This document shows, in pieces, positions 2,922 through 17,841 of a stretch of DNA of 64,000 bases. The translations under genes and the position numbers were made by a program. Under the pieces are notes generated by a model. The model had not been told where the DNA came from and made no database searches. It saw only the letters and a list, made by a program, of their open reading frames with translations. The DNA lies in assembly GCF_003111685.1 (NCBI RefSeq), contig NZ_CP022194.1:1-64000 (forward strand), in the 5' to 3' direction. Source of the DNA: Alloyangia pacifica (GTDB lineage Bacteria > Pseudomonadota > Alphaproteobacteria > Rhodobacterales > Rhodobacteraceae). Within the stretch, counting starts at the first letter, position 1. Each line of letters begins with the position of its first letter.

Positions 2922-3527
2922 CTAGCGCCACATTCTGGCGGCGATGTCCTGCTCTTCGCGGCCGACGGCATCGGCGTAGATCGCGGTGGTGCTGAGCTGG
3001 GCATGGCCGAGCCAGCGCTGCAGCATGTGTGAGGGCACGCCCTGGACCACGGCATGCACACCGAAGCCGTGCCTGAGGCCCTTGGGCGAGCGGTGCGGCG
3101 CATCGGGGAGGCCCGCCTCGATCATGACTCCCTTCACGATCTGCCAGACCCGCACGCGGCCGAGGTTCCAGATCGGCAAAGCGGCCTTCTTTCTGGACCG
3201 CTGCGCCTCGCGAATGCCATGCGCGGTGTTGAGCGTGTCGAGATACTCCGCCGGCACCGGGACTGACCGGAAGATCACCTTTTGCCGCCCGGACGCATCC
3301 TTGCGCTTCTTCAGGGACCGGAGCGTGATGCTGCCGCCGGAGAGGTCGACGCGGGCCGGGGTGATCTCCAGGAGCTCGGACGGCCGGCAGCCGGTCCAGT
3401 GCAGCATCTCGCAGAGCGTGCGGTCGCGGGCCGGCTGCCGACGGGCTGCGCCGAGGAAGGCGGCGCGCTCCTCGGCGTTGAGATAGAGGCGGTTTCCGGA
3501 GGGGTCGTGCAGGCGCATTTCAGACAT
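2922..3527 (-). CDS. Minimal tyrosine recombinase/integrase
   Basis: This is a DNA strand-exchange enzyme of the phage-integrase family, only 201 residues from the ATG at 3527 (the frame is open upstream, but 3527 begins the homologous part). The catalytic residues are visible: R48 (GCRPSE), Lys in the LKKRK turn near 73-76, K149-x-x-R152 (KGLRH, with Lys in the usual His place), H175 (LGHAQLSTT) and Y184. It has almost no N-terminal core-binding domain and lacks the extra helix insertion typical of integron IntI. It is transcribed away from the repeat-punctuated region at 3.6-17.8 kb, and its start codon is 86 bases from the palindromic site at 3614-3642. It may act on that site and its relatives. 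Confidence 0.85.
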   Translation of the reverse strand: MSEMRLHDPSGNRLYLNAEERAAFLGAARRQPARDRTLCEMLHWTGCRPSELLEITPARVDLSGGSITLRSLKKRKDASGRQKVIFRSVPVPAEYLDTLNTAHGIREAQRSRKKAALPIWNLGRVRVWQIVKGVMIEAGLPDAPHRSPKGLRHGFGVHAVVQGVPSHMLQRWLGHAQLSTTAIYADAVGREEQDIAARMWR

Positions 3528-3613
3528 GGTGAGCAGATTGCCCGAATTCTGTTTACTCGGGAAGCACCAAGGCGGCCGCAGCGCCCGGGGACGGAGGTCC
3601 GGGGCGGCGCTGG

Positions 3614-3642
3614 AGTAAACACTATTACCAATAGTGTTCACT
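3614..3642. repeat. Palindromic recombinase core-site candidate (attI-like)
   Basis: AGTAAACACTATT (3614-3626), ACC, then AATAGTGTTCACT (3630-3642) form a 13-bp inverted repeat with one mismatch. Read as 11-bp arms around a 7-bp centre, it has the geometry of a tyrosine-recombinase core site. It sits between the recombinase gene and the accessory region. The right arm recurs at 9057-9069 (identical) and 17829-17841 (one change). An operator for the recombinase gene is an alternative reading. Confidence 0.55.
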
Positions 3643-3645
3643 TCT

Positions 3646-3777
3646 TAGGTGACACTTGGCAAAGACAGATGTGTTGGTGCTCGAGAGCGCCCGGTAGATC
3701 GGCCATTCGCCGGGTGACCTAGACCGTCACCGCCGAAGCTTTGTAGGGGCGCCCGCGACGCTCGCCCCTGTCACCTA
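3646..3777. repeat. Inverted and direct GGTGAC motifs beside the att-like site
   Basis: TAGGTGACA at 3646-3654 and its exact reverse complement TGTCACCTA at 3769-3777 bound a 132-bp stretch. It also contains GGTGAC at 3713-3718 and GTCACC at 3726-3731. This could be a miniature-element remnant or accessory binding sites for the recombinase. Confidence 0.4.
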
Positions 3778-3987
3778 GTCTTTGTCCTTCTCGTCGCGCG
3801 ACTGGCGCAGCCAGCTGAAGATTCCCCCGAAAACAGTCACCACCACGATGCACAACACAACAGTGACGACCATGCCCGGACCGTCGAGATTTGGAGCGCC
3901 GGGCGGTGATACGAACCGGAGGTACGCGATCAGGGCGATGCCGATCAGCAGCCCGAGACAGCTGGCGATTGTGAGATCCTTGGCCAT
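3775..3987 (-). CDS. Small membrane protein with two predicted transmembrane segments
   Basis: This 70-residue protein is read from the ATG at 3987, chosen because AAGAGG lies 5 bases upstream. Two hydrophobic stretches (about residues 7-25 and 40-60) are separated by a short Pro/Gly-rich loop and followed by a charged tail ending DEKDKD. It belongs to no family I recognise. It follows the secreted-protein gene at 4060-5370 on the same strand after about 70 bases, so the two could be one transcript, read towards the att-like site. The function is unknown. Confidence 0.55.
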   Translation of the reverse strand: MAKDLTIASCLGLLIGIALIAYLRFVSPPGAPNLDGPGMVVTVVLCIVVVTVFGGIFSWLRQSRDEKDKD

Positions 3988-4059
3988 GGTATCCTCTTGT
4001 AGCAGGTCGTCCCCTGCCTCACGGCGAGCCTGACGCACGCGAGGCCGGATCGGTAGGCC

Positions 4060-5370
4060 TCAGCCCTTAATCATCCACGTGTAGAAATCGGTGTTGTCGC
4101 CTAGCATGTTCAGGAAACGCACAAAGGCGGACGTCCAGTGTTCGTTGGCGACCTGTGGCACGAGCCAGAGGTCGGCATTGCGCTCTATGGTGATCCGCCA
4201 GCTTTGGAAGACGCGCTCCGCCTGCAGCGCAGTCTCGATCTCAGACAGGTCATAGGCCAGCACCAGAACGTCGTCCGCACTGCTGCCCTTGTTCTCCCCC
4301 GGTGCCCAGGCCAGCAACCAAGGTCCGTCCTGGTCCGGCGCCCCGATCCTCTCGGCAACGTCTGGCTTGTGCCGACTGAGGTAGTAATCGGCTGCCTGCT
4401 GCAGCGTGTCGCTGCCCTCGCGCCAGTCGTAGCGCGCGATGGCCTCCTCACAGGGAATGCCCGATCCTTCCTTGGAAACGCCGTCATATCCTTTACCCGC
4501 GCCCTCCGCCTTCGATTCCACGGGCCAGATCGTTGCGACCTGTCGGTTCGGCCCGAAGCCGCGCCCCGCTTCGACTTGGACAGTCTCCATGGCTTGCGAG
4601 AAAGCCTCGCAGAGCAGTGTCGCACGTTTGGAGAGGGAGCCATCGGGGGAACGGGGAAAGGCGACAACTCCGACGCCGGCGTAATCGCCCATCTTCAAGT
4701 CCTGCATAGGCGCGAACAACCGTGACGCGCGCAACCCGCGCAACGCGAAGTCGGGCCAAAAGTCCGGCCCCGAGTTCTGTCCGGGGTCTGATCCGGTCAC
4801 CAACGCCATTTCGGTGAGCGTCCCCCCCGACAGGATGGGGTAGAGCTCGCCATCGGTAGCTTGCATTATGACTATATCCGAGAACGGGATCATCGGGGTG
4901 GGCTGCGTATAGCCAAAACCGTCCGTGGGCGACTTCACGAAAGGATCATCGCTCCCGATGATCACCCCGTCGGGCGCCATGTCGATGACCCGATCCCAAC
5001 GGAACAGGTCACGCGCTGGTCCGATGGTTTCGAGAGGCAGAGACCGCAGGTCGATGGCCTGCGGATCGGTCAGGACAGACAGTTCGGATGCATTGGGCAA
5101 GCGGTCCAGCCCAGCGTCCTCGAAGATGGCGTTCAGCGCATCGGAACAGTCGGGCGCCCGGCTTCCTGCCAACAGCTCCGTGAGACTGTCGTCATCAAGA
5201 ACCTGCACCAGCGCCCCGGTTTCCCCCATCCGCCAGAGCACTCCGCAGGGATCGCCTCTCAAGGCAGTATCCGCCGCGGCCGGTGCAACGAAGGCCACGA
5301 TTCCGAACAGCAATCCGGAGAGCGGGCCGCAAAGGGACCCGGACAGGGCATTGACCGAGCGCATGGACAT
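4060..5370 (-). CDS. Secreted protein of unknown function
   Basis: This 436-residue protein has an N-terminal signal peptide: a hydrophobic segment GLLFGIVAFVA, then a probable cleavage after PAAA. The start at 5370 follows an AAGGA box; a second ATG two codons later is also possible. The mature part has several Cys residues (for example DPCGVLW and APDCSDA) and no motif I can name. It is probably periplasmic or secreted. It lies between the att-like site at 3614 and the repeat at 5551, reading towards the recombinase, which is opposite to what a classical integron cassette would show. Confidence 0.65.
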   Translation of the reverse strand: MSMRSVNALSGSLCGPLSGLLFGIVAFVAPAAADTALRGDPCGVLWRMGETGALVQVLDDDSLTELLAGSRAPDCSDALNAIFEDAGLDRLPNASELSVLTDPQAIDLRSLPLETIGPARDLFRWDRVIDMAPDGVIIGSDDPFVKSPTDGFGYTQPTPMIPFSDIVIMQATDGELYPILSGGTLTEMALVTGSDPGQNSGPDFWPDFALRGLRASRLFAPMQDLKMGDYAGVGVVAFPRSPDGSLSKRATLLCEAFSQAMETVQVEAGRGFGPNRQVATIWPVESKAEGAGKGYDGVSKEGSGIPCEEAIARYDWREGSDTLQQAADYYLSRHKPDVAERIGAPDQDGPWLLAWAPGENKGSSADDVLVLAYDLSEIETALQAERVFQSWRITIERNADLWLVPQVANEHWTSAFVRFLNMLGDNTDFYTWMIKG

Positions 5371-5550
5371 CACTTCCTTATCGACGAACACATCGATGAG
5401 TGTGTCGAAACGACTGCCTCACCTAGCGTCACCCCGAGTAAACCTAAGTTGTTATAGCCGATTCGGGAACATGAACGCCGCCCCGTCCATGACGGCTCGG
5501 CGCGATGCCTGCGTCAACGAGAAGCTCATGTTCAGCGCGCCTTCCCTCTA

Positions 5551-5605
5551 CTTAACACTTTGCCCTCCGCTCAATCGTGAGCCTGCGAGCATCAGTCTTG
5601 GCCAT
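5551..5605 (+). repeat. 55-bp repeat, copy A (attC-like)
   Basis: A 55-bp segment starting CTTAACACTT matches 9005-9059 without gaps at 44 of 55 positions. After this point the two copies diverge completely. It begins with RYYYAAC-like TACTTAAC, and its reverse strand ends in GTTAAGT, which fits the integron core GTTRRRY. It lacks the AATAGTGTTYACT end found in the other copies. It lies in the 313-base gap between the secreted-protein gene and the glycosylase gene; nothing else was seen in that gap. Confidence 0.6.
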
Positions 5606-5683
5606 TTGGCTAACCGTGCAGACTGCGGCACGCGCCTGACCGTGCGAGTGCCTAGGAAGCCGCCGCAACGACGTTGCGGTGCG

Positions 5684-6523
5684 TTATACCGCGTCATGTG
5701 GAGGGACCGACCACCATCGGACAGGCGCCCCGCCGAGTTCCCCGAGTGCAAGGTTTACGCGCTCCAAGGGGTTCCTGCGTTTGAAGACCTCAGCGCTCCT
5801 CGGATGGCCACTGTCGACGATGGCAGATCGATTGCAAACCGGATCGGCGGCGCAGAAGGCCTCTCTGGCGTCCCCCCCAAGGAGCAGAAAGATCATGGGC
5901 TGATCGCTTTTGGCCAGTTTCTTCAACAGGTAGTCCAGCACCGGCTTCCATAAGCTTCGATGTGCAGCGAGATGTTCATCTCCCGTCCGGGTCCAGGCCG
6001 AGTTCACAAACAGGACGCCCTCTCCTGCAAGGGCATTAAAGTAGGCGCTTGGTTCCGGAAATGCGAACTTTGGCCTTCCAACCAACTGCGACCAGCCTCC
6101 AGGCCGAAACATTCCGGCATGATCAGGCTGTGTAGCCCAAGCGGCGAGCATCAATGGCTTGAGGCTCTTTGCCAGCGCTTGCGGGGGTATTCCGGCGTTC
6201 CAACTCCCGTCCTCGAAAGCCCGTCCGGTGGCCTCAGCGATAGCCGGATAGGGGTCTTGGCCAAGAACCACGACCCGGACGTTTTCGGGCTCGATCCCGT
6301 CGAAGGCGCGCCCGACGTGCGCCTCCCGGGGCGCGCCCGGCAAGATTGCGTCTCTGCGCCCGGGCCAGATGAGCGCATTGTCGTCGATCTCGAGGTTCGC
6401 CGGGATCGCGTTGAAGTTCGGATCGGGACAGTCGCGGAAGAAGTCCTGCCAGCGAGACCCCGCAGGCAGGTCTTCACGCCAACGCGCGTAGTGCTCGCGC
6501 ATACGGTCCGACAACAATGCCAT
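5684..6523 (-). CDS. Uracil-DNA glycosylase superfamily protein
   Basis: This 279-residue protein, from the ATG at 6523 with AGAGG upstream, contains VVVLGQDPYP (about residue 90), which matches motif A of family 1 uracil-DNA glycosylase (GQDPYH), with Pro in place of the final His. A late SGHPR stands where family 1 has HPSPLS. Family members excise uracil from DNA. The overall sequence is diverged from housekeeping Ung, and the tail after SGHPR is unusual, so the substrate could differ. It is divergent from the next gene and lies in a segment bounded by the 55-bp repeats. A role in DNA repair, in plasmid maintenance or against phage with modified bases are all possible. Confidence 0.75.
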   Translation of the reverse strand: MALLSDRMREHYARWREDLPAGSRWQDFFRDCPDPNFNAIPANLEIDDNALIWPGRRDAILPGAPREAHVGRAFDGIEPENVRVVVLGQDPYPAIAEATGRAFEDGSWNAGIPPQALAKSLKPLMLAAWATQPDHAGMFRPGGWSQLVGRPKFAFPEPSAYFNALAGEGVLFVNSAWTRTGDEHLAAHRSLWKPVLDYLLKKLAKSDQPMIFLLLGGDAREAFCAADPVCNRSAIVDSGHPRSAEVFKRRNPLERVNLALGELGGAPVRWWSVPPHDAV

Positions 6524-6699
6524 GCCTCTTGTCTCCTTCGCTCCGAAGCTTCGAGCACCGTATACGCGAAGAAAAGACGCGACGACCCTAATCTCACCAG
6601 AGACGCCAGTGCGTGCTGCCTTCACTAATTGACTTTTCAAACCATATTAGTGATGATGAAACATTTTGGAGATTCCTTATCACGTTAAATGGGTGTGCC

Positions 6700-7383
6700 A
6701 TGCTTGGAATGGAAAGACTGAAGAAGCTCAAACTGACGGTTGCGCAGACGAGCTACCTGCTCGAACTCCCCCCCGAGCTCATCGCCGAAGCGGCACGGGC
6801 AGAGGAAACACCGCAGTGGCTCGAATACTGTTTGGCTAAAATGGAAGCTGAACACGTAGAGGACGCCGAGATCTTCGAGTATCTCCGCCTCGGCATCGAG
6901 TTTACCGGGGATTCCTGGTCCGCACAGACGGCGCGTGCGGCGGTGCCAATACTGGTCGACCAGGCACGCAAGGGGCAGATACTCAGCTATCGAGATCTGG
7001 ACGCAGAGTTGCACCGTCGAAATCCCCAGCGAACTCCGACAGGAACCCTGCCGAAACTCGCGAAGCCGCTCGGTCTGCTGGGGGAGGTCGTGGACCATGT
7101 GCGGCGGGAGGCGCGGGACTCCAGTTCGCAGGTCTCCGAGAAGTATGCCCACCTCCCACCGCTCGAGACCATTGTCGTTCGCGGAAACTCGGGCCTTCCC
7201 GGAACAGGCGCAGATGGCTTCCTGGTCAACTATCTGGACGACATGGGGGAGAGCGATGTCGAAGAGCGGATGCACGTCGAGCGGAAGGCCCTTTATCGCA
7301 AGGCCCAGGCGGACGTCTTTGCGCACGAAGACTGGGATATTCTTCTCGATCTCGTGAAAAAGACTGGCGGTGCAGGGGCGTAA
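6700..7383 (+). CDS. Protein of unknown function in a DNA-metabolism module
   Basis: About 227 residues. The start is uncertain: ATG at 6700 or 6709; the frame is open back to 6613, and an AT-rich promoter-like stretch fills 6625-6690. The C-terminal half has a recognisable pattern (ILSYRDL, LPKLAKPLGLLGEV, then PPLETIVV and SGLPGTG) that I associate with small, poorly described proteins near phage and restriction genes, but I cannot name the family. It ends at 7383, where a fragment resembling the C-terminus of the next gene begins in another frame. It is co-oriented with the GIY-YIG/exonuclease gene 45 bases downstream and probably co-transcribed with it. Confidence 0.65.
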   Translation: MLGMERLKKLKLTVAQTSYLLELPPELIAEAARAEETPQWLEYCLAKMEAEHVEDAEIFEYLRLGIEFTGDSWSAQTARAAVPILVDQARKGQILSYRDLDAELHRRNPQRTPTGTLPKLAKPLGLLGEVVDHVRREARDSSSQVSEKYAHLPPLETIVVRGNSGLPGTGADGFLVNYLDDMGESDVEERMHVERKALYRKAQADVFAHEDWDILLDLVKKTGGAGA

Positions 7384-7432
7384 CTGGGGCATCGTCTCCG
7401 GCCGCGACTGGAAGCGTATCGAGAAGAAGTGA
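7379..7432 (+). pseudogene. Remnant of the C-terminus of a paralogous exonuclease gene
   Basis: Seventeen codons ending in TGA read RNWGIVSGRDWKRIEKK. They closely match the end of the downstream protein (GNWGIVSGCSWRDIRKG, ending at 8940). The frame has a stop shortly upstream and is not the frame of the 6700-7383 gene, so the rest of the paralogue is gone. The TGA overlaps the GTG start of the next gene (GTGA), a relic of translational coupling. Confidence 0.6.
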
Positions 7433-8940
7433 AAGCAGAGATGACCATACCCACCGCCACCGAAATCCTGGACCTGCTGACGCAGGCCAGGCCCCGGCCC
7501 ACCTCCGAAGCGCCCCGTGATGCGCGTGGCATCTACGGGCTTTTCGATCATACCGGAACCTTCCGCTACATCGGGTCCACCGCGTCCAGCGCCGAGACCT
7601 TCTACAAGCGCATCCACCAGCGGCATCGCACGGGATCCGAGACGCACAGCCATTACTTCGCCCGGATGTACAACACCGGGCGGATGTGGGTCGATAGGAC
7701 CGATCCCGAAACCGCGATGGAGATGCAGACCGTCCGCCGCCTGCGGCAGGCCTTCATCGCCCGCCATTGCGGCTGCACCTGGGTGGCGCTGCCGGACCAC
7801 GCCGACATTGCCGGGCTGGAGGCGCAGGTCATCTCCATCGCCCCGCCCGAGATGGTGGCCTGGAACCGTCGCGGCATGGCGGTCTACGACGAGCCGGTGG
7901 ACCTGGTCGACGCGCTGATCGCGGAGCTGCGGCTCTCACCCGTCGAGCGCACGGCCCTGACCCGCCAGCATGATCGACTCCTCGATGGTGTCTCGGCCAC
8001 GAAGCCCGCCGTCGGCCGGAGTACCGGCGGTGTGCCTCCCCTGCCCGATGGGCCGTTCCGTTTCTTCGCACTGGACGTAGAGACCGCCAACCACGACCGG
8101 AGCAGCATCTGCCAGGTGGGTGTCGCCTGCGTGCGTCACGACGCTAGCATCGAGACCTGGGTGACGCTGGTCGATCCGCAGACGGATCGCTGGATGTTCA
8201 GCGGGCTGCACGGAATCACCAACGCCATGGTACAGGGCGCGCCTGGCATCGGCGCGGTGATCGACGTCCTTGACGGGATGCTGGAAGGGCGCACCGTCTA
8301 CCAGCACTCGGGGTTCGACCGGAGTGCGATCCGCGCCGCCTGTGCCGCGCGCGACCGTGCGGAGCCTGCGTGGGACTGGCAGGATAGCGTCAGTGTCGCC
8401 CGCCGGGCCTGGCCCGAGCTGCAGGGCAATGGCGGGCACGGCCTCGCCTCGCTCAAAGCGCATCTCGGCCTGCGGTTCGAGCACCACGATGCCGGCGAGG
8501 ATGCCCGCGCGGCGGCAGAGGTCGTGCTGATGGCCGAGCACGGCACGCGGGTCGCGGTGAAGCCCTGGTCCGCGCCGGTCGACGATGACGTGCTGGATGA
8601 TGGCGATACCGGCCCGGTTTCGGTGCCCACCACCACCATCCGGCGCACCGTAGAGCCTGTCGCCACTCCCATCCGAACCCTGCCTACGGTCGACATTCAT
8701 GCCGCCAAGGGGATGATCCGTGTTCCCGTCGCGGCGGACGGCACCGCTTTCGGTCCCGACCTGGCCCGTAACGGGTACTACACCGTGGGGGCGAAGGGGG
8801 CCGAGGAAAAGCATGCCAGCTTCGACGCGGCCCTCGATGCGCTGACCAAGATGGACAAGCCGCGCTGGCGTCGTCCGAACGCCGCAGGCAACTGGGGCAT
8901 CGTTTCCGGTTGCTCCTGGAGGGACATCAGGAAGGGGTAG
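7429..8940 (+). CDS. GIY-YIG nuclease fused to DEDDh 3'-5' exonuclease
   Basis: A 503-residue fusion. The N-terminal GIY-YIG domain shows GIY at 34-36, YIG at 47-49 and a conserved Arg/His patch after it. From about 210 there is a DnaQ-like exonuclease: D216 and E218 (ALDVET), D297 (HSGFDRS) and H353 plus D358 (HHDAGEDA), the DEDDh set. A C-terminal region from about 410 ends in PRWRRPN and GNWGIVSG, which is repeated in the remnant just upstream. It starts at GTG 7429, with ATG 7441 as an alternative. Both nuclease domains look intact. The reverse order (exonuclease then GIY-YIG) is known from UvrC/Cho-like fusions. It probably processes DNA ends or branched DNA. Confidence 0.85.
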   Translation: MKAEMTIPTATEILDLLTQARPRPTSEAPRDARGIYGLFDHTGTFRYIGSTASSAETFYKRIHQRHRTGSETHSHYFARMYNTGRMWVDRTDPETAMEMQTVRRLRQAFIARHCGCTWVALPDHADIAGLEAQVISIAPPEMVAWNRRGMAVYDEPVDLVDALIAELRLSPVERTALTRQHDRLLDGVSATKPAVGRSTGGVPPLPDGPFRFFALDVETANHDRSSICQVGVACVRHDASIETWVTLVDPQTDRWMFSGLHGITNAMVQGAPGIGAVIDVLDGMLEGRTVYQHSGFDRSAIRAACAARDRAEPAWDWQDSVSVARRAWPELQGNGGHGLASLKAHLGLRFEHHDAGEDARAAAEVVLMAEHGTRVAVKPWSAPVDDDVLDDGDTGPVSVPTTTIRRTVEPVATPIRTLPTVDIHAAKGMIRVPVAADGTAFGPDLARNGYYTVGAKGAEEKHASFDAALDALTKMDKPRWRRPNAAGNWGIVSGCSWRDIRKG

Positions 8941-9004
8941 ATCTCGCCTTCGCTATCAGGGGCCTGACCTTTGCCGGAGAAAAATCTCATCTCGTGCCCA
9001 GTCG

Positions 9005-9069
9005 CTTAACACTTTTCCCTTTGGTCAGTCGTGAGCGTCCGGGCACCAGTATTGGCAATAGTGTTCACT
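9005..9069 (+). repeat. attC-like repeat, copy B
   Basis: A 65-bp site. Its first 55 bp match copy A (44/55), and it ends in AATAGTGTTCACT, identical to the right arm of the palindrome at 3614-3642. The two ends pair imperfectly (AACACTTTTCCC against AACACTATTGCC read from the other strand), as in integron attC sites. It begins 64 bases after the stop of the GIY-YIG/exonuclease gene. Confidence 0.6.
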
Positions 9070-9155
9070 TGGTGCGGAACTCGAGGACGACGCACATGCT
9101 GACGTAAGACTAGGCAACGGCTGTCGCCAATCCATGGCGGTGCCTTGCAGATGCC

Positions 9156-9866
9156 TCAGTAAGTGGCCCGCCCCCCCGAGAGGTCGAAGCACGCCCCGGT
9201 TGAGAAGGAACACTCTTCCGACGACAACCACGCGATCATCGAGGCCACTTCTTCGGGCCTGCCCAACCGGTCCAGAGGGATCTTCGCGATCATGGCCTTC
9301 CGGATTTCCGGTGCCATCTGCTTGATCAGGTCCGTCTCAATGATCGCGGGCGCGACTGAATTGACGCGGATATCGGTATCGGTCAGCTCCTTCGCCAAGG
9401 CCTTCGTCAAGGCGATGACTCCGCCCTTGGCGGCCGAATAGGCGACCATAGCTGGGTTGCCCTCTTTCCCGGCGACCGACGCCAGGTTCACGATCCGACC
9501 GTAGTTTCGGGCCCGCATCGACGGAACGACCGCCCGGCAGCACAGAAAGGTGCCGGTCAGGTTGATGTCGAGTGTGCGGCGCCATTCCCTGAGCGAGTAA
9601 TCCTCGATTGGTAATGTATGACCGGTGATGCCGGCCGCGTTGACAAGAATGTCGATGCGCCTGAAACGGGACAGCGTCGCCTGAAGGGCCTTATCCACTG
9701 AGGTCTCGTCGGTGCAGTCGATCTGCGCATCTGCCGCCTTGTCGATGTCCCAAGACAGGGCCGTCGCCCCCGAGGCCTGAAAGCGCGCCCGTACGGCCGC
9801 CCCTATGCCACCGCAGCCGCCAGTGATCACGGCGACCCGATCCTGCAGGTCTATGGCGTTCATCAT
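9156..9866 (-). CDS. Short-chain dehydrogenase/reductase
   Basis: This 236-residue classical SDR is an NAD(P)-dependent alcohol/ketone oxidoreductase of the cytoplasm. It shows TGGCGGIG (cofactor loop), NAAG, Ser in LASVAG and the YSAAK catalytic pair. The start at 9866 (or the adjacent ATG 9863) has AAGGAGG. It is the last gene of a nine-gene minus-strand operon beginning with the TRAP binding protein at 16716. It probably oxidises an intermediate of the imported substrate; exact specificity cannot be read. Confidence 0.85.
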
Positions 9867-9906
9867 GCTGCCTCCTTGGATTGACCCTGCCGGTTGGCTG
9901 GGCCGG

Positions 9907-10710
9907 TCAGCTGGAAAGGATACCCGTTTCGACACCGACGCGGCGATAAGCCGCTCCGGCCGTAAAACCGCCGTCGATCACGAAATCCTCGCCCGTGACA
10001 AAACGCGAGGCGTCCGACGTAAGGTAGAGGACGAGCTTGGCCACCTCCTCAATCTCGCCGGGACGTCCCGCGGGTGTCATACCGACCATTGGTCCGAGGT
10101 GTGGCGACGTCCGGTTCAGGTCGGTGACGATCAGTCCAGGGCAGACCGCGTTCACCCGGATGCCCACCCCGGCGAACTCCATCGCAGCCGACTTCGTCAA
10201 TCCGCGCAAGCCCCACTTGCTTGCAGTGTAGGCCGGATCGGAATGGCCGGAAAAAGCAGAGTTCGACGAGATATTGATTATGCTGCCGCCATGGCCGGAC
10301 TGCATCAGGGGCGCCATTGCGCGGACACCTAGGAAGGCCCCGGTCAGGTTGATATCCAGCAGGCGGCGCCAAGCGTCGGGTTCCGTGTCGGCGATCAGGG
10401 TGCGGTTGATGATGCCGGCATTGTTGACCAGGATATCCGCCCGCCCCGTCCAGTCGTGCAGCGCCGCTGCCGCCGCCGCCCAACCGGCGGAATCGGTCAC
10501 GTCGAGCTTGTGAAAGCGCGCGTTCGACCCGATGTCGTTGACAAGGGCGTGGCCCTCATCCTCCAGCACGTCGCAGATCAGGACTCGGGCACCGCATTCC
10601 GCCAGCAGCCGCACCTCGGCGGCGCCCTGTCCCCGCGCCCCGCCGGTCACGATCGCGGCGCGCCCCGACAGGTCGGTCATCTCGCGCCGCCAGTCAGCCG
10701 GCCCGCTCAT
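9907..10710 (-). CDS. Short-chain dehydrogenase/reductase
   Basis: This classical SDR has TGGARGQG, NNAG, Ser in SSNSAF and YTASK. The ATG at 10710 overlaps the stop of the upstream hydrolase gene by four bases (ATGA), giving 267 residues. The ATG at 10680 begins directly before the Rossmann fold and gives 257. Proteins of this type beside a fumarylacetoacetate-hydrolase homologue and a TRAP transporter include 2-keto-3-deoxy-L-fuconate dehydrogenases of oxidative deoxysugar pathways. That assignment is inference from context. Confidence 0.8.
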   Translation of the reverse strand: MSGPADWRREMTDLSGRAAIVTGGARGQGAAEVRLLAECGARVLICDVLEDEGHALVNDIGSNARFHKLDVTDSAGWAAAAAALHDWTGRADILVNNAGIINRTLIADTEPDAWRRLLDINLTGAFLGVRAMAPLMQSGHGGSIINISSNSAFSGHSDPAYTASKWGLRGLTKSAAMEFAGVGIRVNAVCPGLIVTDLNRTSPHLGPMVGMTPAGRPGEIEEVAKLVLYLTSDASRFVTGEDFVIDGGFTAGAAYRRVGVETGILSS

Positions 10711-11549
10711 GCCTGAACCATCAGCTGGCGCTGCGTGCCTAAACCCTCGATGCCCAGAGTCACAACCTGCCCGGCCCGGAGGTAGACCGGCGGCTTCATC
10801 CCCAGCCCCACGCCAGGAGGGGTGCCCGTGGAAATGATGTCGCCGGGCATCAGCGTCATGAACTGCGACAGGTAGCTGACAAGCGTCGCCACGCCGAAGA
10901 TCATCGTCTTCGTGTTGCCGGTCTGGCGGCGCACGCCGTCGACCTCGAGCCACATCTCGAGCGACTGGACATCCTCGATTTCGTCCTTGGTCACCAGCCA
11001 CGGACCGATCGGGCCGAAGGTGTCGTGACTTTTGCCCTTGGTCCACTGCCCGCCGCGCTCCGACTGGAAGGCGCGTTCTGACAGGTCGTTGATGACGCAA
11101 TAGCCCGCGACATGATCCATGGCCTCGGCCTCGGAGACGTACTTGGCGCGGCTGCCGATGATGACACCCATCTCCACCTCCCAGTCCGTCTTTTCGGATC
11201 CGCGGGGGATCTCGATGTCGTCGTCGGGCCCGCAGATGGCCGAAACGGCCTTGGCGAAGATCACGGGTTCTTCGGGCGGCTCCTTGCCCGTCTCGCGCGC
11301 GTGGTCCGCGAAGTTCAGGCCGATGCAGATGAACTTGCCCGAGCCGCTGACGCAGGGACCGATCCGCTGCCCTCCTGCAATCTCCGGCAGCTGGGCCGGG
11401 TTGATCGCCGCCAGTCTGGCCAAGCCGTCCGAACCAAGCACGTCACCCGAGATATCTGCCACGTGACCCGACAGATCGCGGATGACGCCATTGGCGTCCA
11501 AAAGGGCGGGCCGCTCCTGTCCGGGGCGTCCGATGCGCATGAGTTTCAT
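10707..11549 (-). CDS. Fumarylacetoacetate hydrolase family protein
   Basis: This 280-residue protein has the FAH-type C-terminal fold: ICIGLNFADHA, the acidic metal-binding series (DWEVEMGVIIG), INDLSERAFQ, and STGTPPGVG near the end. The family cleaves C-C bonds in diketo acids or hydrates keto acids, using a divalent metal. The sequence pattern and the neighbouring SDRs fit 2,4-diketo-3-deoxy-L-fuconate hydrolase-like enzymes, but related hydratases and decarboxylases look alike. The start at 11549 follows AGGAGAGG. It overlaps the next gene by four bases. Confidence 0.8.
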   Translation of the reverse strand: MKLMRIGRPGQERPALLDANGVIRDLSGHVADISGDVLGSDGLARLAAINPAQLPEIAGGQRIGPCVSGSGKFICIGLNFADHARETGKEPPEEPVIFAKAVSAICGPDDDIEIPRGSEKTDWEVEMGVIIGSRAKYVSEAEAMDHVAGYCVINDLSERAFQSERGGQWTKGKSHDTFGPIGPWLVTKDEIEDVQSLEMWLEVDGVRRQTGNTKTMIFGVATLVSYLSQFMTLMPGDIISTGTPPGVGLGMKPPVYLRAGQVVTLGIEGLGTQRQLMVQA

Positions 11550-11688
11550 TTGTCATCCTCTCCTGTGTGAAAATCCGCCGCCTAGGCGGCAATGATGTGG
11601 TACCGGCGCTTGATGCCACCGGTGATGGAAGGCTGCGCCCAACGCCAGACGTCGGCGTGCAGCGGTCAGGTTGCGGGTCCGTTGGCTG

Positions 11689-12525
11689 TCAGCCGGAATA
11701 GACCGGCGATCTCCGGGGCTTGGCCGCAGCTCCGGCGGAAATCGCGTTGAAGCGATTTGCCCGTGCGATCCCCCGCTGAATTTCACGCGACAGTTCGCGG
11801 ATTTCTTCGCTCAGCTTTTCGGGATCGGAGGCCTCGAAATGCGCGATCTGAAGCACGAAGACCACGCTGCCGAGCACCTCGTTCTGAAGGTCGAACACGG
11901 GGGCCGCGACGCCGACGAGATTGTCGAAGACTTCGCCACGCGTGATCATCGCCTCGGCCGCGCGGATGGCCGCCATCGCGTCGAGGAAGTCGGCAAGCGT
12001 GTCGCCCAACCCGGCCTCGCGCAGGGAAGCTTCGTTGTGGGTCCAGATCGACCGCAGACGCGCTTGGGAGTGGTTCGCCAGAATGACTTTTGCCATGGCC
12101 CCCCGGAACAGCGGCATCGAGCGGCCCGGCCTGTAGATGTCGGGGATGCTGCGGTCGGCCCAGGCGAAATCGGTGCAGAGCACCTTGTCGCCGTAGTAGC
12201 TGCACACCATGATGTTCAACCCGGTCGTGTGGGCGTAATGGCGAATAAGGTGATGGGACGCGCGGTGCAGCGGATCGTTCTGGCGCCGCAGCATCTCGAG
12301 CTCGATGACACGGGACCCCAGCACATAGGTGCCGCCGCTCGCCGGGGAACACAGACCTGACCGGGTCAGCGCCTGAAGGTAGCGGTAGGCGCTAGGGCGC
12401 GACGATCCGGACAGTTCCGCCGCCCTGTCGACGTCGATGACCACGTGCTGTTCGTCGAAGCCGTCGAGGATGGCGAGCATCTTGTCCAAGCTGTTGGATT
12501 TCACCCCGGGCGTGTCAGGTTCCAT
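11689..12525 (-). CDS. IclR-family transcriptional regulator
   Basis: This 278-residue regulator has an N-terminal winged helix (residues 10-70; LDKMLAILDGF and SRPSAYRYLQAL are typical of IclR) and a C-terminal effector-binding GAF-like domain (DPLHRASHHLIRHYAHTTG onward). It starts at 12525 with GGAAAG upstream, 8 bases after the dctM stop, so it is made from the operon it probably controls. Likely operators are the paired TATCA(N3)TGCGAT elements upstream of the TRAP binding-protein gene. Confidence 0.85.
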   Translation of the reverse strand: MEPDTPGVKSNSLDKMLAILDGFDEQHVVIDVDRAAELSGSSRPSAYRYLQALTRSGLCSPASGGTYVLGSRVIELEMLRRQNDPLHRASHHLIRHYAHTTGLNIMVCSYYGDKVLCTDFAWADRSIPDIYRPGRSMPLFRGAMAKVILANHSQARLRSIWTHNEASLREAGLGDTLADFLDAMAAIRAAEAMITRGEVFDNLVGVAAPVFDLQNEVLGSVVFVLQIAHFEASDPEKLSEEIRELSREIQRGIARANRFNAISAGAAAKPRRSPVYSG

Positions 12526-12533
12526 AGGCTTTC

Positions 12534-13817
12534 CTATTGTCCGCTGATGAACTGGGCGGGGCCAGTCACGATTGATGGGAAGACGATCAAGAGTCCCAGA
12601 ACGATGAACTGTGCCGCAATGAAGGGGAATACCCCCGTGATGACCCGCGAGAGCGGAACCCGCGAGACGCCGGCCACCACGTTCAGCACCGTTCCCACCG
12701 GCGGGGTCAGCAGACTGACGGCCGTTGCCATCATGAACACAACACAGAAGTAGACTGGATCGATCCCGGCCGCCTTGGCCGTTGGCAGCAGCACGGGAAC
12801 CATGATGAGGATGATCGGGACCATGTCCATGGCGCATCCGACGATCAGCACCAGAACGACGACGGCAAGCATCAGCAGGCGGGGGTCATGGGCAAAGGGC
12901 TCGACGATCGATCCGATCTGATCCGTCAGGCCCGCAACGGTCACCATCCAGCTCGACACCATGGCCGCCGCCACAAGGAACATGACCATGGCGGTGGTCT
13001 TGGCGGCGCCGAGGAAGACCGCGAAGAGATCCGCGACCTTCAGTTCCCGGTAGATCACAATCGCGACGAACAGGGCATATACGGCCGCGATGACCCCGGC
13101 TTCGGTTGGCGTGAAGACCCCTAGGCGCAGCCCGAAGAGAATGATGAAGGGCAGCAGCAGCGCCCAGATTCCGTCGCGCGCCTCTCTTCCGACCTTCCCC
13201 CAGCTCTGGCGGGGCAGCGGTTCCACGGGATCGCGCCGGGCGACGAGGTACCACGTGACGGCCAGCACTAGGCACATCAGCAGCCCGGGGAAGATCCCTG
13301 CGATGAAGAGCTTGGTGATTGAGACGTTGCCGATGACGCCCAGAAGGATGAAGCCGATGGACGGCGGGATGATCAGCGCCGAGATGCCCGCCGAGGCGAT
13401 CAGACCGGCCGAGCGTCCTGGCGCATGTCCGGCCTTGATCATCATCGGTACGAGGATAGTCGACAGCGCGGCCGCATCGGCTGCGGCAGATCCCGAGAGG
13501 CTGGCCAGGATGGCCGCCGCAAGGATGGCCACGAACCCCAGCCCGCCACGCACATGGCCGACCATCGCCACCGACAGGTTGACGATGCGGCGCGACAGGC
13601 CGCCCGCGTTCATCACCTCTCCGGCGAGCATGAAGAACGGAATGGCCATCAGTGGGAAACTGTCGGCGCCGTTCAGCAGGTTCTGCGCCACGATTTGCGC
13701 ATCGAAGAAATCCAGATGCCACATCAGACCGATGCCGCTCATAATAAGGGCGTATCCAATCGGCATGCCGATGATCATGCTGCCCAGCAGGCAGCCAAGG
13801 AAAATTGCGAGTGTCAT
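12534..13817 (-). CDS. dctM: TRAP transporter large permease (DctM type)
   Basis: This 427-residue integral membrane protein is very hydrophobic with about twelve segments. It has DctM signatures such as GMPIGYALIMSG near the start, PLMAIPFFMLAGEVM and LLTPPVGTVLNVV near the end. It forms the ion-coupled channel of a tripartite ATP-independent transporter with the DctQ protein and the periplasmic DctP protein encoded in the same operon. One base separates it from dctQ. Confidence 0.92.
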   Translation of the reverse strand: MTLAIFLGCLLGSMIIGMPIGYALIMSGIGLMWHLDFFDAQIVAQNLLNGADSFPLMAIPFFMLAGEVMNAGGLSRRIVNLSVAMVGHVRGGLGFVAILAAAILASLSGSAAADAAALSTILVPMMIKAGHAPGRSAGLIASAGISALIIPPSIGFILLGVIGNVSITKLFIAGIFPGLLMCLVLAVTWYLVARRDPVEPLPRQSWGKVGREARDGIWALLLPFIILFGLRLGVFTPTEAGVIAAVYALFVAIVIYRELKVADLFAVFLGAAKTTAMVMFLVAAAMVSSWMVTVAGLTDQIGSIVEPFAHDPRLLMLAVVVLVLIVGCAMDMVPIILIMVPVLLPTAKAAGIDPVYFCVVFMMATAVSLLTPPVGTVLNVVAGVSRVPLSRVITGVFPFIAAQFIVLGLLIVFPSIVTGPAQFISGQ

Positions 13818-13818
13818 G

Positions 13819-14343
13819 TCATTTCACCCCAGCTTGGCGCAGCGCCGCGGTTTCTTCATCCTGAAGCTCGATCCGGTCGATCTTGCCCGTGACGACGAGC
13901 CAGAGCCGCCAGAGCAGGATAACGGCGGTGGACAGACCGAAGATCACCCCGACACCGAAGAACATCGACAACGGCAGACCCGTCGCAGGCGCATAGGTCC
14001 GCGTATTGACGGCGACCTGTGCCCAGCTGCCCAGGATGATGAGCCAGGTGGCAAAGAGCATCAGAACATGCGCCACCGCGAGAAGCAGCCGGCGCAGTGG
14101 GCGCGGCAGATTGTTCAGGATGAAGTCGAGGCCTAGGTGCCCGTTCTCGTGCAGGACCACGATGCTTCCGATGAAGACCATCCAGACGAAGAGCCAGCGC
14201 GAGAATTCCTCTGACTCGGTCAGGCCGGAGTTGAAGGCATAGCGCAGGACCACGTTGCCGAAGACGAGAACGACCATGCCGAACAGGCAGAGGACGATGA
14301 ACCATTTCAGGATCAGAAGGTATATTTGGAAGAAGCGGTTCAT
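13819..14343 (-). CDS. dctQ: TRAP transporter small permease (DctQ type)
   Basis: This 174-residue protein has four hydrophobic segments and the DctQ pattern (FGNVVLRYAFNSG, then EEFSRWLFVWMVFIGS and ENGHLGLDF). It is the small membrane subunit that pairs with DctM. GAGGTGACCG precedes its ATG. Confidence 0.92.
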   Translation of the reverse strand: MNRFFQIYLLILKWFIVLCLFGMVVLVFGNVVLRYAFNSGLTESEEFSRWLFVWMVFIGSIVVLHENGHLGLDFILNNLPRPLRRLLLAVAHVLMLFATWLIILGSWAQVAVNTRTYAPATGLPLSMFFGVGVIFGLSTAVILLWRLWLVVTGKIDRIELQDEETAALRQAGVK

Positions 14344-14375
14344 CGGTCACCTCGGCTTGGTGGTGCGTCAGGGGA

Positions 14376-14804
14376 TCATTCGGGGCGACGGTAGTCGGCC
14401 AGCGTCTCGTCGGGAACATCGGGCAGGTTCACAACGATATTGTCGGGCGTGCGGCATGTCAGCCAGGTCAGCCCCTCGGTTGTCGACATGTTCGCTTCGA
14501 CATGCGGCATGTGCGGCGGGACGAAGACAAAATCTCCGGCCGTCATGTCGACGAATTCCTTGTAGTCCTCGCCGAAGTAGATCCGGCCGTGGCCCCTCAG
14601 GACATATCCGCCGGTCTCGGCCTCGCCATGGTGGTGCGGCGGGGACCGGAAGCCCGGCTCGTTGGTGACCTGACCGAACCACAGTTTCGTGGCGGGCGTA
14701 TGCTGCGGGCTGACGCCCGACCGGCGGACACAATCGCCGGACTGGCCCGTGTTGTCATCCAGCGCGGCTGCCCGTGTAACGACGGGAACGACTTGCAGTG
14801 TCAT
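14376..14804 (-). CDS. Cupin-domain protein
   Basis: This 142-residue single-cupin protein has metal-ligand motif 1 as PPHHHGEAETGGYVLRG and motif 2 as GDFVFVPPHMPHVEAN. Such small cupins act as isomerases, epimerases or dioxygenases, or bind sugars. Here it sits between TRAP subunit and dehydrogenase genes, so a role in converting the imported compound is likely. Its ATG has AGAGG upstream. Confidence 0.85.
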   Translation of the reverse strand: MTLQVVPVVTRAAALDDNTGQSGDCVRRSGVSPQHTPATKLWFGQVTNEPGFRSPPHHHGEAETGGYVLRGHGRIYFGEDYKEFVDMTAGDFVFVPPHMPHVEANMSTTEGLTWLTCRTPDNIVVNLPDVPDETLADYRRPE

Positions 14805-14861
14805 GAGAACCTCTTCGGAGTTGCTGGTTTGGGAAGGTCGTGCGGCACCTGCGCGGTGCCA

Positions 14862-15605
14862 TCAGTTCATGTGCATGCCGCCATTCACGTCGATGCAGGA
14901 ACCGGTGATGTAGGACGACAGCCCGGACGCGAGGAACAGCGCGCTGTTCGCAACGTCGTCCGTTTCTCCGAACCGCCCCAGAAGGATCTGCGGCATGACC
15001 TTGGCGGTCAGTTCGTCGTCGTAGAAGTCGCGGGTCATCGAGGACATGATGACGCCGGGATTGATCGCGTTCACCCGGATGCCCTGGGGTGACACGTCCC
15101 GCGCCATCGCCCTGATCAGCCCCAGAACGCCGGCTTTCGAGGCGGCGTAGTGCGGCCCGCCCATCAGGCCGCCCCCCCGTTGTGCCGAGATCGACGCGAT
15201 GCAGATGATCGAGGCGCCGGATGTCATCAGGCCAAGGGCGGTCTGGCACATCAGGAGTGTGCCGCGAAGGTTGACGTTCATCACGGCGTCGTAATCCGCA
15301 GAGGTGATGTCGCGGGTGCGACGTGATTGCGTGATGCCCGCCGAATTTACGAGAATATCGAGGCCGCCGAACCGGTCATGGGCCAGCGCCCCGAGCGCGG
15401 CGCAGTCGTCCTCGCTGGTGACGTCACAGGGCTTTGCGATGGCTGAGGCGCCGAGGCTTTCCGCCGCGCCGCTCAGTCGATTGTGGTCGCGGTCGGCGAG
15501 TATCACCTGCGCCCCTTCCGAAACCAGCTTGCGTGCGACCGCAAACCCGATGCCGTCGGGATTGCCCGCTCCGGTGACGATGGCGGTACGTCCTTGCAAT
15601 AGCAC
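14862..15605 (-). CDS. Short-chain dehydrogenase/reductase
   Basis: This 247-residue classical SDR starts at GTG 15605, with an AGGAGAGG box upstream. It shows TGAGNPDGIG (cofactor loop), NSAG, Ser in ASISAQ and YAASK. It is the first of three SDR genes in the operon, directly after the binding-protein gene, and so may catalyse the first oxidation of the imported sugar or hydroxy acid. Confidence 0.85.
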   Translation of the reverse strand: MLLQGRTAIVTGAGNPDGIGFAVARKLVSEGAQVILADRDHNRLSGAAESLGASAIAKPCDVTSEDDCAALGALAHDRFGGLDILVNSAGITQSRRTRDITSADYDAVMNVNLRGTLLMCQTALGLMTSGASIICIASISAQRGGGLMGGPHYAASKAGVLGLIRAMARDVSPQGIRVNAINPGVIMSSMTRDFYDDELTAKVMPQILLGRFGETDDVANSALFLASGLSSYITGSCIDVNGGMHMN

Positions 15606-15720
15606 CTAGCCTCTCCTTTCGTTTGTGAAGGGCGCGGAAGACGCCAAGCGCATGGTGCCACCGCGCGGGCGCCCGACTGGACGGCTGCGCGATGGTGCCG
15701 GATCTTGGCGATTGCTCCGA

Positions 15721-16716
15721 TTACTCGGCCTTGGCAGCCTCGGTTTCGACGTTGAAGGCTTCGACCAGAGCGGGATCGAGCTTGCCGGTCACTGTGCCGA
15801 CCACGCCGGACACCGCATCATGGAATTCCCCGAGGGTGTCCGCCGAGATCTCGTTGACTTCCATGCCCTGCTCCTGAAGGAACTCCAGGGTGCCCTGCTC
15901 ACCGTCGACAATGATCTGCCGGTTGAAGTCGGATGCCTCGGTGCAGGCCTCCTGCACGGACGCTTTCTGCGCGTCGTCGAGCTTGTCCCAAAACTTCGTC
16001 GACACGTAGACGACCGACAGGGTCGTGAAGTGTTTCGTCTGCGTCAGGTAATCCTGCACCTCGTAGAACGAGGCCGCCCGGGTCACGTCGTCGGCGATCT
16101 CGTTGCCGTCGATAGCGCCGGTTTCAAGCGCGGTGAAGGTTTCGGGGAAGGGCAGCGGCGTCGGGTTGATGCCCATGGCCTTGAGCGAGTCGATGTAGAC
16201 CGCGTTCTGGATCGTGCGAATGCGCAGGCCCGATGCGTCGGCTAGCTTTTCGACGGGACGCTTGTTGTTGGTCAGGTTGCGGAAGCCGTAGTCCCAGAAG
16301 CACAGGCCGGTGATGCCATTGGGCTCAAGCTTGGCTAGAATCTCCTTGGACACGTCCGATCGGGTGACCTTGTCCATCTGCGCGTAGCTTTCGAACATGA
16401 ACGGCAGGTTGAACATGTCGAACTCGGGAACCATCGCCGCCAGGCCAGCCGTGGTGGTCACCGCGGCCTCGACGATCCCCCCCTGCGCCGACGAAATCGA
16501 CTGGATCTCGTTGCCGAGCTGCGCCTGTGCAAAAGGCCGCACGGTGACGGTGCCGTCGGTTTTTTCATCCACTAGCTCGGCAAAGCGGTTCACCGTCTGG
16601 CCCATCGTGCTCTCTTCGGCGACGGGGTAGCTGAACTTCATCGTCTCAGCTGCGGTTGCGCCAACACCGGTGGCCGCAAGAAAGGATGCCGCTGCGGCGA
16701 CCTTGAAAACTGTCAT
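15721..16716 (-). CDS. dctP: TRAP transporter periplasmic solute-binding protein (DctP type)
   Basis: This 331-residue protein starts at ATG 16716 (GGAGG six bases upstream; an in-frame ATG five codons earlier would remove the ribosome site). A signal peptide ends in GATAAE. The mature part has the DctP pattern, including AQLGNEIQSISSAQGG and the conserved Arg region GLRIRTIQNAVY that binds the substrate carboxylate. It is the first gene of the operon, as is usual for the most highly expressed TRAP component. Confidence 0.92.
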   Translation of the reverse strand: MTVFKVAAAASFLAATGVGATAAETMKFSYPVAEESTMGQTVNRFAELVDEKTDGTVTVRPFAQAQLGNEIQSISSAQGGIVEAAVTTTAGLAAMVPEFDMFNLPFMFESYAQMDKVTRSDVSKEILAKLEPNGITGLCFWDYGFRNLTNNKRPVEKLADASGLRIRTIQNAVYIDSLKAMGINPTPLPFPETFTALETGAIDGNEIADDVTRAASFYEVQDYLTQTKHFTTLSVVYVSTKFWDKLDDAQKASVQEACTEASDFNRQIIVDGEQGTLEFLQEQGMEVNEISADTLGEFHDAVSGVVGTVTGKLDPALVEAFNVETEAAKAE

Positions 16717-17414
16717 TGGTTTTTCCTCCATAGAGGCCGCCTCCCGCGACCTTCCGTAACGTCATGACCAGAACCCGCGGAAAGGTCAAGAAATATCATT
16801 TTGCGATACTTGTTAACTTGCCAATTGGCCGAACATCGCGGGCCCGGATCTGGAGTGGCCGCCATTCTGCACATTTCCGCATCGCAGCATCTCGTTAGTC
16901 TAAGAGTATGCTAGAGAGCGACGGTGGGCCAGAGGGTAAGTTCTCCAAGTCCCCTGAGCCGACCAAGGGCGCTCAGCCTCGCTGATCGACAGAAAATACT
17001 ATTTTTATCAAATTGCGATCTACGGGGCGCGGATGTGAGTGGCCTTTCCCCGCCCAGAGGCCTGATCGAATCCTGACATTCCGCTCACGTGACGGACGGC
17101 CCAGTCCGGCGCTCAGCGTCTGACGGAGTTTGATCGGGACCGATCGGCTCCTGCGAGACGGTCAGAGAGCCAGGTCCGGGCATACGCTCCAAGCAACGGG
17201 TGGCCATATGGACGACCAAGGCGCGACCGCGGGAGACGACGCACCCCCGATCATGGGCAAGGGCTATCCCGGCGGCGCGCCGACCTTCCGCGCCCGGGAT
17301 AGACCAAGCAGCCCGACGATGTGACCATCTGCTTTGACATGACGCAACATCCAACGGCAGGGAGAGGCAAACGCGGCACGCCGCGTCAGCAAAGGACTAA
17401 GCCGAGGAGTTCCA
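16717..17414. promoter_or_regulatory. Regulatory gap upstream of the TRAP operon
   Basis: About 700 bases hold no convincing gene. Two related 15-mers, TATCATTTTGCGATA (from about 16794) and TATCAAATTGCGATC (from about 17006), agree at 12 of 15 positions. Each is followed by a GGAT(N)TGAGTGGCC-like stretch, so a short segment seems to have been duplicated. The pair are candidates for IclR-regulator operators of the minus-strand operon. A 40-codon open frame at 17208-17324 looks fortuitous. Confidence 0.4.
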
Positions 17415-17782
17415 ATGGAAGATGCTGACCGCGTACGCGACACAGCTGAAAAACTGGCTTGGAACGACCGCAACGAGCTACGTCTCGCCTTGGACTTCGA
17501 AACCTGGAAATTGGAGGAGGCCGAAGACTCCGTTCCGGAACTTTACCTTCCCCTGCGCGGCGTCAGAAGTTCCAGAAGCTGGGCGTGATCGAGCGCGTCG
17601 ATACCGCGGGAGAATACTACCAGCCGCGTCGGTGCCCCCTCAGCCCATTCGGAAGGCGTGTCGCCGAGTTTCTGAGGACGGAGCACGACGTCTGGGCATC
17701 TGAGCGCGACCGTGTGAAAGCCGATACCCGTGCGGCTAAGAAACCCGGGCCTGCGAGCAGAGTACGCTTGCCGTCGGTTTAA
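17415..17782 (+). pseudogene. Small gene broken by a frameshift (winged-helix-like C-terminus)
   Basis: ATG 17415 has a strong GAGGAG box and opens an acidic 57-codon frame ending at 17588. From about 17545 a different frame carries a convincing continuation (KLGVIERVDTAGEYYQP, then SPFGRRVAEFL), in the style of a small winged-helix protein, to TAA 17780-17782. A single shift near 17540-17560 would join them into about 120 residues. It is either a pseudogene or a sequencing error. The TAA lies inside the attC-like site C. Confidence 0.55.
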
Positions 17783-17841
17783 CAGTTTTCGCGGCAGCGC
17801 TCTCTGGGGATCGCGCAACCGACTTTGCAATAGTGTTTACT
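17778..17841 (+). repeat. attC-like repeat, copy C
   Basis: A 64-bp site whose ends match copy B (TTAACAGTTTTC at the left; GCAATAGTGTTTACT at the right, one change) while the middle differs. Conserved ends around a variable centre is the attC pattern. The stop codon of the preceding small gene is embedded in its left end, as in many integron cassettes. Confidence 0.55.

Follow-up and report, generated by a model that had tools for sequence, protein, structure and literature searches.

A minimal plasmid-borne tyrosine recombinase in Alloyangia pacifica with a compact core site and an integron-like arrangement of split sites

The recombinase gene and its upstream sites

The DNA analysed (the window) is a stretch of 64,000 nucleotides from Alloyangia pacifica that corresponds to positions 1-64,000 of a 120,216-bp contig (C6, NZ_CP022194.1) in a genome of 5,165,968 bp. 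A gene located near its left end (2922-3527, minus strand) encodes a minimal tyrosine recombinase of 201 amino acids, which contains the catalytic domain and lacks the N-terminal core-binding domain, and three sites (A, B and C) lie upstream of this gene at the ends of two multi-gene segments. The original prediction proposed that recombinase and sites could form an integron-like capture system. Both are real, as indicated by the match of the protein to PF00589 (E=8.2e-19, residues 16-186) and by four exact copies of the motif AATAGTGTTYACT at 3614-3626 (minus strand), 3630-3642, 9057-9069 and 17829-17841 (plus strand). When up to 2 mismatches were allowed, 6 matches were found, whereas 100 shuffles gave 0.27 on average, and a search of the whole genome with up to 1 mismatch retrieved only these 4 copies, with no match for a reversed control pattern. 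A motif widespread in the genome and unlinked to the recombinase is thus not what was found, since it is confined to this locus in its own genome, with a reservation for 2 of 62 Sulfitobacter-group genomes (G485 and G505) that are considered below.

The recombinase is not an IntI-type integrase, in agreement with the absence of IntI-specific features noted in the original prediction. It scored 29.1 bits against the integron integrase model TIGR02249 (cut-off 265), over residues 145-196 only, and its alignment to the Xer models was limited to positions 96-256 of XerA and 120-272 of XerD, with scores far under the curated cut-offs. Weak matches were obtained to NCBIfam models named tyrosine-type DNA invertase (198-200 positions). 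FimB and FimE are short tyrosine recombinases of about 200 amino acids that invert a promoter segment, and the protein resembles them in its size and in lacking the N-terminal core-binding domain; no inversion was seen here, nor was one searched for. Tyr184 of the protein is invariant. Identity was 75-91.5% in the eight best plasmid records, all from Rhodobacterales, about 55% in Komagataeibacter and relatives and about 42% in Shewanella, and scanning a single genome for each GTDB species gave 78 loci with homologues. Phages were considered as a source of the recombinase and discarded, every one of the 18 matching records being below 60% identity. The gene adjoins parA/rep (ParA, RepA) in four Acetobacteraceae plasmids read and is often not directly adjacent to rep/par in the Rhodobacterales plasmids read; queries for rep, par and mob genes matched 28 of the 78 GTDB loci, and one contig closes as a circle of 34.5 kb with one recombinase and one site. 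It is therefore carried on plasmids near rep/par genes, as multimer-resolution systems are, and looks first like a plasmid-backbone, resolvase-type gene. A small protein with a WGR domain is annotated beside the gene in five plasmids (L135, L136, L159, L160 and L163). Neither the recombinase nor its sites were described in the literature searched, a search outside which most subscription papers fall.

Site A, hereafter site I, is a compact core of 25 bp with the sequence TAAACACTATT-ACC-AATAGTGTTCA at 3616-3640. The palindrome that had been proposed near the start of the recombinase gene is present, with a core narrower than the 3614-3642 originally given. A palindrome of the type TTAACACTATT-NNN-AATAGTGTTAA, with at most 6 of 22 mismatches, was found within 200 bp upstream of 59 of the 63 homologues with at least 60% identity, against 6 of 405 control windows. 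This count was based on 82 homologues placed by their N-terminus, with L094 dropped for its too short upstream stretch; it omits five loci with no N-terminal match (L105, L119, L124, L125 and L128) and may include a few site II matches. The four homologues of this group without site I are L070, L114, and L068 and L075, in which an inserted element lies between site and gene. For L068/L187, transposase- and resolvase-like open reading frames (ORFs) were seen by eye in L187 to separate site I from the recombinase gene, and for L075 the element was deduced from a similar upstream sequence. The arms of the window site (GTTYACT) resemble site I of close relatives (GTTCACTCC in L051/L052). L185 (G452:C33 7530-7592) retains a vestige of site I together with the proximal flank of the site, 94% identical over 51 bp to window positions 3576-3626, and no recombinase was detected in that genome.

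A further palindrome, absent from the original prediction, was found at 3530-3555 (minus strand) and named site II. It is of the TTAACAGTATT-n4-TAAACTGTTAA type, is degenerate here and ends just before the start codon, a position that recurs in relatives. The distance between the centre of site I and the start codon was 98-101 bp in 39 loci, 108-113 bp in 10 and 123-124 bp in 4 (n=53), and the distance from site I to the start-codon palindrome, start to start, was 84-85 bp (40 loci), 94-97 bp (9) and 107-108 bp (4). A core site with a phased accessory site, as in resolution systems, is suggested because these spacing steps amount to about one helical turn. The arrangement appears in all 53 loci, which were picked for having site I, so that 53/53 is not an unbiased frequency, and the limit used for site II was loose (at most 9 of 22 mismatches); another set, of 43 loci, includes L068, L070 and L075 and omits truncated and distant ones. 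The two sites perhaps serve autoregulation as well.

Split sites and segment boundaries

Sites B (9006-9067) and C (17779-17839), both on the plus strand, have the sequences TTAACACTTTT ... CACCAGTATT-GGC-AATAGTGTTCA and TTAACAGTTTT ... AACCGACTT-TGC-AATAGTGTTTA, respectively, and share the layout TTAACA[C/G]TTTT, 39-40 bp, AATAGTGTT[C/T]A. Judged from motif and arm-pair matches, they constitute a second class of site, a split site of 60-62 bp with fixed polarity. Three arm pairs of this type (at most 2 and 1 mismatches), which should be B, C and the reverse reading of B, were found on the 120 kb contig, and none in any of 30 random sequences of equal length generated with a first-order Markov model. 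Both sites had been described as following the stop codons of plus-strand genes. This is correct for B, located about 65 bp after the stop of the gene 7429-8940; the ORF that has its stop in C (17459-17782) matched no Pfam family and is doubtful. A repeat of 33-42 bp resembling insertion sequence (IS) ends lies just to the right of C (17897-17936), with near copies in the Salipiger marinus contigs L187, L188 and L189 and in L208 and L088.

Nine split sites were found in seven genomes or records: B and C of the window, one in Donghicola eburneus, two in Sulfitobacter litoralis, one in S. dubius pDSM109990_c, one each in the Sulfitobacter-group genomes G485 and G505, and one in Primorskyibacter flagellatus, where the recombinase is on another contig. 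With the recombinase at the left, all of them read TTAACA[C/G]TT.., 38-40 bp between the arms, AATA[G/A]TGTTNA. The right part comes close to AACCGTATTRGC on its inner side, so that the right half is an asymmetric core whose left arm is weak and whose right arm is strong. A recombinase is present in cis for five split sites (B, C, Donghicola and both of S. litoralis), all of which share the same side and polarity (5/5). Fourteen matches to the split pattern in IMG/VR lay in stretches of 28-49% GC with no recombinase homologue at E 1e-3 and were treated as chance.

The original prediction assigned B and C to the attC style. The placement of split sites at the far ends of the segments with constant polarity supports it, and the outer arms (R''/R') are complementary. 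The hairpins were not found: the centres of five sites folded no better than shuffles on both strands (fractions 0.07-0.91), and complementarity of L'' and L' was at chance over the nine sites (shuffle fraction 0.19, partner-permutation fraction 0.75). These sites do not, then, combine complementary R''/R' with imperfectly complementary L''/L' and single-strand folding, as attC sites do.

A filled and an empty version of site I were compared. Plasmid p5 of Thioclava sp. GXIMD4216 carries the same AAA ATPase gene (83% amino acid identity) and recombinase (91.5%), followed by site I at 38385-38409, and the 48 bp of its flank after this site (38412-38459) align in exact register with the window bases after B, at 89.6% identity (9070-9117; 0 of 2000 shuffles). 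The flanks of A and C showed no match to the Thioclava flank (shuffle fractions 0.20 and 0.65). A plasmid of Salipiger marinus has the same order as p5, site I and then a gene here called X, and a 44-bp stretch across the start of gene X recurs 17 bp after B (9085-9128; 0 of 300 shuffles), so that 9070-9128 (plus strand) appears to be the former right flank of site I. Because the Thioclava site I runs straight into the right flank of B, 5,427 bp of the window (3630-9056, segment 1) sit between the halves of one Thioclava site; relative to the empty site of p5, segment 1 would lie inside site I. This pair does not tell gain from loss. Fixed gene content with no site-bounded change, which would have spoken against the original prediction, was not observed, as segment 1 is present in one plasmid and absent from the other at site I. 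The sequences thus suggest a site-bounded gain or loss for segment 1 in one clean pair, not for C. With 59 of 63 homologues having the palindrome, site I is like attI, which adjoins the integrase gene and takes up insertions, as illustrated by the same single pair.

In a systematic comparison of flanks a score of 36, reached by 2 of 1378 pairs among 53 site-I flanks, was taken as threshold. The scores were 78 for B with Thioclava, 41 for B with S. marinus and 117 for split site 2 of S. litoralis with its own site I; those of Primorskyibacter (40) and G505 (37), both with L136, are weak. The right flank of C matched no site-I flank, and its right-hand junction is putative.

S. litoralis provides a second array, with recombinase, site I, about 3.0 kb, split site 1, about 8.4 kb and split site 2 on one contig. 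Over 106 bp, the sequence following split site 2 has 92.5% identity with the one following site I of the same array. S. dubius and S. litoralis have in common a block of 8,357 bp (96.8%) that extends from 19 bp before split site 1 to 40 bp before split site 2, and the sequence to the left of this block differs between them. UPF0149 genes in three other plasmids were examined as copies of the S. litoralis segment and rejected, no split site being present in those stretches. PADLOC returned candidate defence families for the UPF0149 gene inside the segment itself and for an Abi-type gene next to the split site of Donghicola.

Cargo and plasmid context

Segment 1 contains a small ORF with a weak FtsX-like match under the Pfam cut-off (3775-4038, minus strand), an ORF of 443 amino acids with no match in Pfam, NCBIfam or PADLOC (4060-5391, minus), a protein of the uracil-DNA glycosylase superfamily (5684-6640, minus), an ORF of 256 amino acids with no family in profile searches (6613-7383, plus) and a protein of 503 amino acids with a DEDDh exonuclease domain (RNase_T; 7429-8940, plus), whose N-terminus is GIY-YIG-like by eye only. 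Segment 2 (9057-17828, 8,772 bp) is a catabolic and transport cluster in which the nine ORFs with family matches, all on the minus strand, encode three SDRs, a FAA hydrolase, an IclR regulator, the TRAP components DctM, DctQ and DctP, and a cupin. No replication gene was recognised by Pfam among the ORFs scanned from both segments. This cargo differs from small cassettes of one gene each that read away from the integrase, the segments being multi-gene, of 5.4 and 8.8 kb, with many minus-strand genes.

The contig is a RepA plasmid, with the replication initiator RepA (PF10134) encoded at 61960-63090 (minus strand) and adjoined by a ParA-like gene. Matches to PF00589 occur in 8 places of the genome, and because only 1 of them is on C6 a second recombinase of this family is absent from the contig. 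The gene adjoining the recombinase (595-2655, minus strand), common to Thioclava p5, encodes an AAA ATPase with an M41-like tail and a weak match to the defence protein IetA; G447 has a homologue of it (74% nucleotide identity) near the same backbone and lacks the recombinase in its genome. Plasmid plas4 of Alloyangia pacifica matches stretches of the contig between 18092 and 112244, mostly at 78-97%, and has neither the sites nor an annotated recombinase of this kind. It was discarded as an empty site: the common backbone begins at 18092, but the whole left block is absent and a relaxase is found there, which makes the comparison unclean. A protein with a phage depolymerase C-terminal domain is encoded at 45299-47779 of this exopolysaccharide plasmid.

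Proposed mechanism, alternatives and significance

The explanation that we favour, and consider rather more probable than all the others, is that a plasmid-backbone recombinase acts on the 25-bp site I, whose core also takes up circular segments with a split site, so that an ordered array is built. The recombinase would act on the core of site I with the assistance of the helically phased site II and, in this capacity, probably resolves plasmid multimers, while the same core would double as an insertion point. The segments would be circular, replicon-less and multi-gene, each carrying a split site composed of a lone outer arm (TTAACACTTTT) and an asymmetric core (AACCGTATT-RGC-AATAGTGTTAA). 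Recombination of such a circle with site I, with the exchange inside the core, at the L'-R' core of the split site, would regenerate a compact site beside the recombinase and leave the split site at the far end of the segment, following the logic of attI x attC, and repeated insertion would give the order recombinase, site I, segment 1, split site, segment 2, split site. Comparison of relatives reveals the conservation of sites I and II, the class of split sites with its fixed polarity and a single filled/empty pair with its boundaries in the core; we infer that this recombinase is the catalyst, that circles occur as intermediates, that segments were gained and not lost, and that the enzyme resolves multimers. 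A double-stranded split site with an outer accessory arm is favoured because folding of the inner region did not exceed that of shuffles and the L''/L' pairing is at chance. The capture system of the original prediction is partly supported, by the empty site in p5 and the attI-like compact site, and not as to attC-type hairpins or the right end of C.

Several observations weigh against this proposal. Split sites are rare: among 48 recombinase-bearing genomes they were found in 3 (with the exact pattern in Donghicola and S. litoralis, with a looser one in Primorskyibacter; the exact scan gave an extra match with spacing 30 that is probably chance, and the reversed control gave one too). They were also found in 3 of 62 Sulfitobacter-group genomes, in 1 of 394 family genomes, which is that of the window itself, and in none of the 17 plasmid records of which all or part was read. 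A different pattern searched in 389 relatives, a set overlapping the family one, likewise found only the window's own genome. G485 and G505 have orphan split sites, no recombinase being detected in them. Below 60% identity, site I of this sequence was present in only 3 of 18 homologues. There is only one clean filled/empty pair, that of segment 1; no matching flank was found among the 53 site-I flanks for 5 of the 9 split sites (C, Donghicola, S. litoralis split site 1, S. dubius and G485), and the match to the backbone resumes 92-251 bp beyond C. Finally, the spacers differ (ACC in A, GGC in B and TGC in C), which is not what canonical double-strand exchange would favour.

The most serious alternative, although we regard it as unlikely, is an ordinary plasmid multimer-resolution system with no dedicated cassette capture, in which the extra sites are relics of cointegration at site I and the second recombinase was later lost. 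Such a system agrees with a compact match in 35 of 40 recombinase-bearing genomes searched, exactly one in 25 of those 35, with the parA/rep neighbours in Acetobacteraceae and the 34.5 kb circle, and with extra sites that are compact in some loci: a second near-palindromic core without outer arm lies on the cassette side, 1.2-3.5 kb from site I, in L063 (8697-8721) and L080 (6442-6466). A relic of site I would, however, retain the compact proximal arm, whereas in the nine split sites the outer arm stands at a constant distance of 38-40 bp and the core is asymmetric, and the ORFs scanned with Pfam in both segments yielded no replication gene. Tn4430 TnpI-IRS and XerCD-cer are resolution systems with core and accessory sites; like them, the locus has a core and a phased accessory site by the recombinase gene, with par/rep neighbours in some plasmids, and differs in having one core and one site overlapping the start codon, plus an asymmetric second class at remote segment ends.

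The remaining explanations are far less probable. Movement of dif modules (pdif) by the host XerC/XerD has in its favour that plasmid modules bounded by tyrosine-recombinase sites are known in Acinetobacter, for which the excerpt of PMC13141974 proposes cointegrate-based movement. This similarity is limited, since host XerC/XerD acts on pdif sites whereas here a plasmid-coded enzyme stands beside its presumed site and two site classes exist. The palindrome beside this recombinase in most homologues with at least 60% identity, the likeness of the window arms to site I of its own close relatives and the similarity between the two arms of site I count against a pdif system, to which we give little credence. 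Acquisition of the segments by IS transposition or homologous recombination, with the sites being incidental, deserves marginally less credit: the IS-end-like repeat adjoins C and several of the plasmids read contain IS elements, but the junction in the Thioclava comparison falls inside the core in exact register and a flank match was seen at S. litoralis split site 2 too.

A true integron, with an IntI-type enzyme and single-stranded attC hairpins, is hardly credible, being already contradicted by the family test and by the L''/L' test. It would account for the layout, the site length, the R''/R' complementarity and the junction at the L'-R' core. As in integrons, a recombinase borne by the platform has a compact site beside it, and each inserted segment has at its far end a longer split site with conserved ends and a variable centre. 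The excerpt of PMC2727003 places integron exchange at L'-R' of attC, the same side core as the junction here, and describes L'' and L' as inverted repeats. What differs is a recombinase of about 200 amino acids that is not IntI, the absence of L''/L' complementarity, segments of 2.4-8.8 kb with several genes, many of them reading toward the recombinase, and carriage on a plasmid backbone. The layout and apparent working are thus integron-like, and the system is neither an integron nor built from integron parts.

A broader and more tentative proposal, to which we give slightly less than even credence, is that cassette capture evolved a second time outside IntI integrons, with a plasmid resolvase of about 200 amino acids using its resolution core as a dock for replicon-less, multi-gene double-stranded circles with an asymmetric split site, and forming ordered metabolic and possibly defence arrays on rhodobacterial plasmids. 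The short sites and the small enzyme make binding and exchange directly testable. If the proposed mechanism holds, a recombinase for plasmid maintenance also serves as a cassette platform for whole operons, such as the 8.8 kb TRAP-transporter catabolic cluster found here, with no need for the chemistry of single-stranded attC that is considered peculiar to integrons. It would also suggest how a resolvase could give rise to an integron-like system, and a route by which rhodobacterial plasmids may gain ecological functions.

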